From assembly GCF_035083965.1 (NCBI RefSeq), contig NC_089739.1:7862001-7926000 (forward strand): a stretch of 64,000 bases of DNA, written 5' to 3'. The position numbers and the translations under genes were made by a program. Below are positions 49,863 through 54,147 of this stretch, piece by piece. The notes below the pieces were generated by a model. That model was not told the origin of the DNA. It was given only the letters and a program-made list of their open reading frames with translations, and ran no database searches. Position 1 is the stretch's first letter. The number at the start of each line of letters is the position of its first letter. Source of the stretch: Branchiostoma lanceolatum (lineage: Eukaryota; Chordata; Leptocardii; Amphioxiformes; Branchiostomatidae).

Positions 49863-52800
49863 CTACTTGCTGATCCACATCTGCTGGAAGGTGGACAGGG
49901 AGGAAAGGATGGACCCGCCGATCCACACGGAGTACTTCCTCTCGGGAGGAGCGATGATCTTGATCTTCATGGTGCTGGGTGCCAGGGCGGTGATCTGTGG
50001 ACGATCGGCGCTGAGCCGGAACTTGGGCAGCCCTTCCGATGAGCTGGGGAACAGGTCCTTACGCATGTCGATGTCAATTGTCTTCATACCTAGACAAAGA
50101 ATAGAAAAACCCACATGATTAGGCTGAGGCACGATAAGTATTCCTAAAACGTCAACAGAGCGCTCATTATAGGCTCCCATTACAGACCCTTCAGACTTAG
50201 CCCCGCCAACAGCAAACTCATTGCAATTCAGCTCCTGCGAATAGAGAGTTACGTTAGTCAGCCCACTCAATAACAGTGACAATAACAATACCTAACTGCA
50301 TGGAGATGATCCTAAGTTGATCCTCCTCGTTCACCCACACCAAAAATGTTTTGGGCTTGTTGTGAAAGATGCCACGCCCTTCCGGCCAGTCGCGGCTCAT
50401 CCCTGCAGTTGACAGCTTCATCTTCTGCTCGAATTCCGGATCCCGGGTGATGATCATGAAGACCAGTGGCTCATTGATGTCACCGTGGAGGTTGGTGTCA
50501 CGGACGATTTCCCTCTCAGCTGTGATAAACGAGATAGAACAATGTTAGAAACCCCAGCAAAGATATCGATAGTCCTCATAGGAAAACTATAATCAGTGAC
50601 TAAATGAAGACCTTTATCGTACACATATACCCACTGGGTTAAGTACAGGTCACAGCAAAATAATAGCATGAGCATGTATACATTGTCAAGTTTCTACAAG
50701 AATTGTAATCTACAGTGAATTCGACTTCTTGCACCTTTGCAATGGTGAAAATGCAAGAGCAGATATATTTCATAATCAGAACTTTCGTTGTCTAAACTCA
50801 TTGAAGATATAGAGTTGTCTGTATTACTTACAAGTTCTATGAAGTAGGGAAACATAGATTGTATCAGTCTATACAATGTATCGTACACTGCACTATACCC
50901 AAAAAACTCAAATCCATTGTCCTTTCATAACATACACACCTGTAGTAGTGAAGGAGTAACCGCGCTCTGTCAGGATCTTCATCAGGTAGTCTGTCAGGTC
51001 CCTGCCGGCCAGGTCCAGACGCAGGATGGCGTGCGGCAGGGCGCGCCCCTTGTACAAAGTCAACAGCTCCAACGCAGCATTCTGTGTTGAACAAAAAACA
51101 AGAAAACGTCTTTGTAATTATCCGATGAAGAAAGTCTATCAAGTAAAACGGTAATATTGCACTGTCATATTTTTCTTTGCTGCAAAGTTAATCTGGATTC
51201 TGACAGAAAATAATTTAATCTCTCTAAAGTTCCCGTCAGAAACTGAACTGGAAAAAGGATAAGATTCTAACGACTATTTTTAGGAGGTGAATAAACAGAC
51301 ACAAGTGGATATTATCTATGAAAGATCAAAATCACATCATCACTAACCAGATCTTCGATTTCCTCAGTCCTTGTAGTCTCAGTCGTCTCCATCGCAGCCT
51401 ATGATGGACATATAGAAGCAAAACGTGACTGTGTATAATGAAGGAGGAACATTGGAAAGTCCAAGATGATGCGCACAGAATGCTAAAACAACAGAAGGCC
51501 ATTCTTAACATACTAACAAAAAGAACGAAAAAGACTTATCATATATTAACTTATCATATATTACCACTATGTCACTTATAATGTCCTCTGTGCGGAATGT
51601 CTTATTTTGAATTGAATAGATATGATATAGAATAAGGTCCATATGAACTGACAATTGAATACTAGTCTAGAATGTCAAACGTTTACGCCTTCCGTAAGTT
51701 CAACGTAAACATTTCTCCTCATTGAAAAAAAGCTGCCGGACGGGCGCTTGAAACGTCTGAGTTTGCAAAGTTAATGTATTAATCCAGTAGTAAAGATGCG
51801 AGTATAAACACATAACTGCTACACTCCAGATGAAACAAAAAATATCCTGTTTGAAGAGTGGAGTAGGACAGACACAAGAAAATGTCATCTTGCGAAAAGC
51901 AACGCCAAATCTAATAACCACTGACCATGATCGGATCTTTCATTGTCTCCCCACTTGTCTTCTCCTCCTCTACATCCTATGGTGGATACAAAACAACAAA
52001 ATTGAACAAAATTCCAAATTCATAAGCGCTTAAGCTGAAATGGGAAATCACAATAAACACGAATTACACTCTCAAATATATATTAGTTTGAGTAGGGGGC
52101 AGGACAGATAAAAACGGATGTTTTTTTACAAACATGAAAGTCTCAAAGATAACTAACCGTCAGTTTCGTCGCCTCGAGCTCCTTCGCCTCGAATGACACC
52201 TCAGACTGTACGTGGTGGACATAAAACAGCAAAATAAAACAGCAATCAAGCATGAAAAGTTTGTCACCAATTTAACATCTTTCAGATCTTTTCTTCTACT
52301 ACAAGCCTAAGGGAAATACAGTATTTCCTATCTGTAGAAGAGGGGCTACAAATATATGAAAAACATATTCCGAGAATTGAAAAAAAATCAACACAATTCA
52401 GGTGTATATGTATTGTACTGTACTTCTGCCAGTTGATCTCACAATAAAATTGAAGTAAAAAAAAATGTTTTTCATGACACACAACAGAAGACAGACTCAT
52501 GCAGGCCATAAACGGACTCTGGTAGGGAAGTTGGTCCAAATAAGACAGTAGAAAAAAATTAAATAGGATTTAAAAACGCCTTTTCCTCTTTGTAAGAAAG
52601 TAATCATTGGACAAAGTTTAAGATTTATGAAAACAAAATCACAACAAAACACACTGATTAATATCCGTATTGAATTATCCCACGCCCACACACTCAGAAA
52701 CACACACACAAATTGCAACAAGAAATTCAGGCTCTTAGTGACAAATGAAAATAAGTCAATGTTCCATTCAGAAACAGTTCACGGGGCAGATGGGTGTAGC

Positions 52801-54147
52801 TAGGGCCAAACAAGCTTCATCATCTAACCGGCAAAGAAACCAGTATACGCATGCGCACAGAATGTCAAAGTAGGGGCAAAAACAATAAATATTGACTGAA
52901 TACTCATGCCTCAAGCAAATCGATATCATGGAAAATGTTACTTCAGCTAAAGAGAAGTGTAGGTCTACTGAACAGGCGTTGCCTACCTTCGCGTCCTGAG
53001 TCCCGAGCTTCTTGGCTGCTTATGAAAATAGAAGAACAAGAGTAACGTTTTAGCAAATGTTATAAGCATGAGCGTACATTTAACGCCTAGCCGTGTGCTC
53101 ATCCAGCCGATTTACATTAGTACAGAGGGTGCTACAGAGGGTGCTACAGAGAGTAGAATGCTCGTAAAGGAGTAACAAAGAATATATGTGGTACATCATT
53201 GAACACATTTTGTTTCAGTTGACTTTCATTAGCAAATTTAGACATGGCAAAGGCCGGGAAGGAAAAGAACTCCGAGGGATCGTAACTTCTCTTGTTCCAC
53301 CACACTCAACTCTTTGGATTGGAATCAAATACGCTATGCAAACACGGTTTTTGTCAACATAAACAACACACATCTCAGTAAATTTATCTCATTTAGATAT
53401 TCTCACTTCTGTTGACAACCCCAATACAAAAAAGGCAGAGGAAAAGCAGCCATAGAGGACACTACTGTCTACTCTCTCCCTCCAGCAGCATCTAAGATGA
53501 TATTGGAAATGAGGCATTCTTAAAGGAGTCCTAAACTCCAGAAGGCGGTGTTGTTTTCCACTAGATTATGTATCAATCAATACATAATCAGCCGACTTTG
53601 TACAGAATTCCGCTTGTGGTGAATTACACAAGGTGTGTTTTTTAAAACAATATGATACTCACTAAACCCCTGCAGACCCTACCAGTGTATTCCCTATGCG
53701 TAAACATACATTTTTAAACGAGGATATTCTCGGCGTAAATGAGGATGGTTAAGCACAGTAAGGTTAATAAGATATTAAAGAACACATAGCAAGACGAGTT
53801 TTTCTTAACCACCCTGACATTCATTTTATAATCTAACTTTTGTCAGGCATTGTCAGGCACATTGTAAAAAACACATACTACAGGCTGAGGGTCAACTGGG
53901 GAATTTGGTAAAATACTGAATGCTTTGGGATGCGTACGGGACTGGTGGGTACTTTATAGTATACTGTAAAAATATTCATTTCTACTTCCTAAAATTACCA
54001 TCCATTGGAAAATAACTCCCCCCTCTGGGGTTTAGGACTCCTTTAAGTGAAGATTTTTTAAACGAATAACTCACCAATAGACTTTCCTTCAGCGGCGTAA
54101 ACGACCGCCAGGATCACAGCAATCCCCACGATGAGACGAATGGCCAT
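49863..54147 (-). CDS. Secreted-type chimera of actin and a guanidino (creatine/arginine) kinase segment
   Basis: 282 residues, eight exons, all GT-AG and phase-consistent: 54075-54147, 52987-53015, 52158-52205, 51926-51976, 51348-51398, 50940-51081, 50292-50519, 49863-50089. Exon 1 is a clear signal peptide ([20 protein letters not shown]). Exons 2-5 give a charged Glu/Lys/Thr linker. Exons 6-7 carry actin about 170-227 ([35 protein letters not shown], then a diverged FEQKM). Within exon 7 the text changes to guanidino-kinase sequence ([33 protein letters not shown]), including the NEED motif. Exon 8 returns to actin: IDMRKDL, then [20 protein letters not shown] and [19 protein letters not shown]. 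It stops where actin has Gln360. The actin nucleotide loops and most of the kinase active site are absent, so neither activity is expected. Function unknown; a structural or secreted role is only a guess. Confidence 0.85.
53524..54042. repeat. TTAA-flanked MITE in intron 1 of the chimeric gene
   Basis: Ends AGGAGTCCTAAACTCC and GGGGTTTAGGACTCCT, flanked by TTAA at 53520-53523 and 54043-54046. About 519 bases, non-coding, with an inner hairpin around ATTATGTATCAATCAATACATAAT. Same target type as 32409-33258 but a different family. Its right end lies about 30 bases from exon 1. Confidence 0.8.

Follow-up and report, generated by a model that had tools for sequence, protein, structure and literature searches.

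The locus on the minus strand at positions 49863-54147 of a 64,000-nucleotide stretch of Branchiostoma lanceolatum DNA (hereinafter the window, meaning the whole stretch that was analyzed) raises the question of how a fragment of a guanidino kinase came to lie inside an actin-derived gene, and whether the protein so encoded is made and maintained. As a rule, chimeric genes are assembled from entire exons or domains; at this locus, part of one fold sits within an exon of an unrelated fold with the reading frame kept, and a sister gene supplies the corresponding with/without pair. In a search of the literature on fusions and chimeric genes, whose coverage excluded most subscription papers, no title or abstract opening among the matches listed described a fusion of actin with a guanidino kinase.

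The gene comprises eight exons of 73, 29, 48, 51, 51, 142, 228, and 227 nt, which on joining yield 849 nt, that is, 282 codons and a stop. A preliminary description of this DNA had proposed eight phase-compatible exons with an open frame of 282 residues, and all were recovered in place, with agreeing phases, AG/GT at the inner borders, and no internal stop; the chance of 282 stop-free random codons at this base composition is about 2e-8. The GC content of the exons is 0.47-0.62, as against 0.41 across the window. The features of the locus are given below, with P0001, P0003, and P0006 denoting public proteins discussed further on:

54075-54147, minus strand: exon 1, with the start codon and a 24-residue signal peptide, 24/24 identical to P0003
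52987-53015, minus strand: exon 2, 29 nt of spacer, matching P0003 residues 25-34
52483-52500, minus strand: alternative first exon MSLSSV, lacking a signal peptide, which fits the start of P0001
52158-52205, minus strand: exon 3, 48 nt of acidic spacer, found in P0001 and P0003
51926-51976, minus strand: exon 4, 51 nt of acidic spacer, found in P0001 and P0003
51348-51398, minus strand: exon 5, 51 nt of acidic spacer, whose equivalent 17 residues are exactly those absent from the isoform P0006
50940-51081, minus strand: exon 6, the end of the spacer, then actin from ~165 to intron position 204
50292-50519, minus strand: exon 7, actin AEREIVRD (204-211), 27 residues of uncertain origin, and the kinase piece
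50416-50496, minus strand: the 27-residue segment of uncertain origin within exon 7, weakly like both actin and kinase
50292-50415, minus strand: the guanidino-kinase piece LSTAGM...NEED...ISMQLG, 42 residues, up to the end of exon 7
50254-50291, minus strand: read-through of the exon-7 donor, completing a glycine codon and adding 11 codons and a stop, as in P0001
49863-50089, minus strand: exon 8, which resumes actin at position 268, some residues being lost, continues with ITALAPS...WISK, and ends in the stop TAG
49857-49865, minus strand: TAG-GAG-TAG after the last K, namely a stop (Q in actin and P0003), E, and a second stop where P0003 ends in ...TKQE

The signal peptide has a hydropathy peak of 3.4 over 11 residues, by which the predicted product should enter the secretory pathway. 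Donors 1-6 lie at the 96.8-99.6th percentile of GT sites and all seven acceptors at or above the 95th (by a crude pyrimidine count); the exon-7 donor, at the 84th percentile, is the weakest of the seven. The claim of intact splice sites thus holds for six donors and has to be qualified for the exon-7 donor, which is read through in P0001; in combination with exon 1, the read-through form would encode 219 aa. The donor of the MSLSSV exon lies at the 83rd percentile, and the start of P0001 fits position 52500. We discarded an internal duplication of exons 3-5, there being no repeat of at least 18 nt among these exons. Intron 1 contains a 48-nt inverted repeat (53519-53566 and 54000-54047; 85% complementary, 433 nt apart), a possible small mobile element, and a tandem array of ~40 bp units (GGACACGACACCGCACGACTCTGTC...; 54929-55145) lies ~0.8 kb upstream of the start codon.

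Pfam searches recovered both actin (PF00022; 72.4 bits against a curated cut-off of 27) and guanidino kinase (PF00217, residues 166-211; 53.7 bits against a curated cut-off of 22.4, covering positions 40-84 of 203) in one protein, which bears out its designation as a chimeric gene. Among the 2119 six-frame fragments of the window of at least 20 aa, a kinase profile (41 sequences of 300-420 aa) matched one, in exon 7 (E 3.6e-27), and an actin profile (60 sequences of 360-380 aa) matched three, in exons 6 and 8 and weakly in exon 7 (E 0.002); both profiles were drawn from a set of 239 proteins. The order signal peptide, acidic spacer, actin, guanidino kinase, and actin again holds within a single gene. 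By our reading of the scans and of a multiple alignment of 15 proteins picked by hand from the same set, kinase residues 167-208 occupy the place of actin residues ~228-283, in agreement with the ~228-282 proposed at the outset. These residues are up to 90% identical to guanidino kinases among the best 120 of 5162 sequences scored, none of those 120 being a lancelet kinase. The solved structures that match the piece best (44 matched sequences) belong to arginine, taurocyamine, creatine, and glycocyamine kinases, whose scores per domain are close, such that the segment first called creatine/arginine kinase is secure as a guanidino kinase and may be of any of these or another subtype. With guanidino kinases (PF00217: creatine, arginine, and taurocyamine kinases) the window gene shares 42 residues including the NEED motif, but ~88% of the kinase is absent, N-terminal domain included; PF02807 was not detected by Pfam in the 282-residue protein, which accordingly is no two-domain kinase.

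The actin profile match spans actin positions 162-360 only and is gapped. With conventional actin (PF00022) the window gene has in common residues ~165-211 and 317-359 and the intron positions 204 and 268; it differs in lacking residues 1 to ~164, ~228-283, and the last 16, and in bearing a signal peptide. Two blocks are near-unchanged, with 0/42 and 1-2/41 differences from two actins (8/42 and 2/41 from the diverged second copy in P0010), and to these the epithet "almost identical to actin" properly applies; it does not apply to the part of exon 8 ahead of ITALAPS or to 27 residues of exon 7, both of which are strongly changed. A full four-subdomain actin fold is not encoded, the part before ~162 being absent and the GGTTM loop changed. 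The actin residues before ~165 include phosphate loops, and the full fold has both phosphate-binding loops and the adenine pocket. The 27-residue segment of exon 7 has no Pfam or PDB match. Treated as an extension of actin at the usual gap cost, it was matched by 10-16 of 400 shuffles with four actins, and by 3/400 with a cheaper gap and one actin; treated as an extension of the kinase, it was matched by 6, 16, 41, and 54 of 400 shuffles with four kinases, two others giving no gain.

Searching the window for further copies by tblastn with P0001, P0002, P0003, and P0010 yielded only chance-like matches outside the gene (E 0.36-0.56), and when 47-56 kb was scanned finely without gaps, many short matches of chance-like quality appeared in addition, along with the text RPSFIG just past the stop. 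The latter, at 49830-49847 on the minus strand, lies shortly beyond the second stop in the same frame, with a GTACGT overlapping its last codon, and reads, in phase too, like the actin exon ending at 268 (QPSFI-G/GT). It may be the end of an actin exon displaced by a rearrangement, or a donor site in the 3'UTR; it may also be a chance occurrence, a second instance being present in the window at 61171. Elsewhere in the window, a LINE-like element on the plus strand (16920-17798 and 18531-22355) has a 1275-codon frame with endonuclease, reverse transcriptase, and zinc-binding domains, preceded by a 293-codon frame that may be ORF1 and has no Pfam match. It is flanked by acyl-CoA oxidase frames on the plus strand (13624-13977 and 31760-32131), probably exons of one gene. 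Neighboring frames on the minus strand (59008-60282 and 63158-64000) match GT4-conflict glycosyltransferases, a family named for conflict systems (E 3e-74 and 1e-46), and a nearly perfect 90-bp tandem array of 8.9 copies with 96% matches occupies 45742-46540.

The locus is already public, without description, as P0001, an "uncharacterized protein [Branchiostoma lanceolatum]" of 191 aa found among the best 120 of 7987 sequences scored. From SEVSF onward, P0001 is what exons 3-7 encode when translation runs on past the exon-7 donor; relative to the window gene it lacks exons 1, 2, and 8 and has a different first exon without a signal peptide. Judged by this correspondence in sequence, P0001 is the same locus as the window gene or an allele of it. 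The full 282-residue product is a putative one, given that none of the seven donors is weaker than that of exon 7 and that P0001, the one public model found for this locus, is without exon 8.

Among the same 120 best-scoring sequences are P0003, P0005, and P0006, B. lanceolatum records named "ACTA1", which are isoforms of a sister gene. Like the window gene, this group has the signal peptide (24/24), the spacer (51/66 aligned residues), and the same shortened actin half, and both break off early after residue 361, actins having YDESGP beyond this point; the text at this end is KQE in P0003 and K-stop-E-stop in the window gene, the extra stop costing the latter two further residues. Unlike the window gene, the P0003 group lacks the kinase piece, retains actin 212-224 and ~256-361, and has a 16-residue stretch, SKFDASTNGKMKRSEA, ahead of the actin part. 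The segment missing from P0006 corresponds exactly to exon 5, and P0005 carries two additional residues where exons 2 and 3 meet, differences that fit the exon borders found in the window gene. The contig record for P0001 has 16,375,685 bases and that for P0003/P0005/P0006 18,823,661, but the assemblies may differ, so separate chromosomes are not implied. The front part of P0005, used as a query, retrieved three proteins from 105 candidates, all from the sister gene; with a reach of ~151-481 aa this search missed P0001, and diverged family members could thus have been missed too. We take the two genes to belong to a family of signal-peptide-bearing partial actins with two or more members, one of which is marked by the kinase piece. 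PMC9673378 states that isoforms were added to the BraLan3 annotation from assembled transcripts; if the three sister records belong to that annotation, as we infer, their isoforms suggest transcription. The sister gene has ELRNPKTLF in place of actin ERFRCPETLF, which resembles the kinase text HNKPKTFL and, as a lead only, could be a kinase remnant. Residues 88-105 of P0003, SKFDASTNGKMKRSE, ahead of the actin part and without counterpart in the window gene, have the look of an EF-hand loop; an EF-hand origin of the front part is not supported, since P0003 fails the EF-hand pattern PS00018 of PROSITE and Pfam gives no match to an EF-hand.

The introns bear on where the actin part came from. 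In the usual actin numbering, the intron between exons 6 and 7 interrupts codon 204 and that between exons 7 and 8 codon 268, in each case after the first base (the actins of 376 residues that served as rulers are one residue ahead of this numbering). The intron lists in PMC2753633 give 204-1 for an ascidian cytoplasmic actin and 208-2 and 271-1 for a muscle actin of the same ascidian; we read 271-1 as equivalent to 268-1 if the muscle actin numbering is shifted by 3, a shift under which 208-2, the third intron of the muscle actin, does not fit 204 phase 1. With two introns at actin positions, the actin part probably did not derive from a spliced cDNA, and an intron-bearing gene is its most likely source. 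A processed-gene or retrocopy origin of this part was rejected on account of the retained actin introns 204 and 268, a test that covers the actin part, the kinase piece sitting in a single exon.

The observations to be accounted for are thus the anatomy of the gene, the existence of a sister gene, the features that the two have in common (signal peptide, spacer, and end of the actin part), and the two introns at actin positions. We regard as likely, taken as a whole, a scenario in which the window gene is a young mosaic duplicate, the kinase-bearing member of a small family encountered to date in B. lanceolatum alone. A front comprising signal peptide and acidic spacer would have been fused to the C-terminal half of an actin gene that had introns; this founding fusion would have been duplicated; and in the window gene 42 guanidino-kinase codons would have taken the place of the central part of one actin exon. 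These codons may have been brought in by a DNA-level patch, through repair-templated insertion or illegitimate recombination, or may instead have been lost from the sister. As the front and the actin half are common to both genes and the kinase piece is in one, the latter would either be the most recent addition or have disappeared from the sister, and the order originally envisaged, a chimera subsequently given a secretion signal, probably does not hold. Counted against this scenario are the form of P0001, the weak exon-7 donor, the extra stop, and the misfit of 208-2.

With actin before ~165 and ~320/360 kinase residues absent, no actin-like nucleotide binding or phosphate transfer is expected of the product. 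Devoid of the first actin phosphate loop and of about nine tenths of the kinase, it would be neither a filament former nor an enzyme, and most likely it is secreted or degraded. Structure prediction gave models of too little confidence to be used (a mean pLDDT of 41 for P0003 from a single sequence, and of 39 for P0001 from a mixed 15-row alignment). In comparisons of the window and sister proteins, which are blind to frame-breaking changes, the signal peptide has 0/24 changes against 15/66 in the spacer (p 0.009), suggesting constraint on the signal peptide. The signal peptide and actin together, taking exon 7 as far as AEREIVRD and all of exon 8, have 21/146 changes against the same 15/66 (p 0.17, not significant), by which constraint on the actin part is not demonstrated; a narrower contrast, without the altered stretches of exons 7 and 8, gives 5/114 against 15/66 (p 0.0003). 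The preliminary description's preference for selection over a pseudogene is therefore weakly favored by the signal peptide, the contrast that takes in all of exon 8 being not significant.

These results have to be weighed under several explanations, two of which accept the anatomy set out above. To the view that the window gene is a pseudogene, a decaying copy of the sister gene that is transcribed at most in part and whose frame is open through youth, we give slightly less than an even chance: the absence of exons 1, 2, and 8 from P0001, the extra stop, the weak exon-7 donor, and the actin residues lost and changed in exon 8 all favor it, but the eight exons, six of the seven donors, and all seven acceptors look intact, and 282 codons run without a frameshift or stop. 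Rather doubtful, in our estimation, is a functional secreted mosaic maintained by purifying selection, such as an immune decoy or an extracellular actin-tail binder, in which the kinase hairpin is a structural insert. The unchanged signal peptide beside a changed spacer and the two nearly unchanged actin blocks would fit it, whereas the loss of significance on including the changed part of exon 8, the poor models obtained with no or shallow alignment, and the weak exon-7 donor argue against it. A precedent comes from Sandiford et al. 2015 (PMC4450071), where extracellular actin has immune roles in insects, though that protein is cytoplasmic actin leaving by an exosome-independent route and is discussed with proteins lacking signal peptides; the likeness to the window product is that of actin outside the cell, here predicted from the signal peptide.

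An artefact of assembly or haplotype joining that placed kinase sequence inside an actin exon is very improbable. P0001 may derive from the same assembly as the window and so need not be independent of such an error, but the reading frame runs from actin text on into the kinase piece, whose end is a donor leading in phase to the next actin exon, and the same architecture minus the kinase piece exists in P0003. As other public B. lanceolatum proteins share the architecture, misassembly is also unlikely for the signal-peptide and actin part. The young mosaic duplicate hence remains our preferred reading: most likely a young gene in which the actin tail and acidic spacer have at most a binding or decoy role, or none, and in which the kinase piece, by a narrow balance, has no selected function.

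A more far-reaching view, which we put forward as an unlikely one, is that this is a selected, secreted actin-kinase mosaic, with pieces of two abundant muscle proteins turned into an extracellular family by repeated patching of one exon and the kinase hairpin providing a new surface. If the gene is expressed, it would offer a test case for new secreted proteins starting from scraps of abundant genes; if it is not, it would be a clear example of gene-fragment recombination in the lancelet genome.
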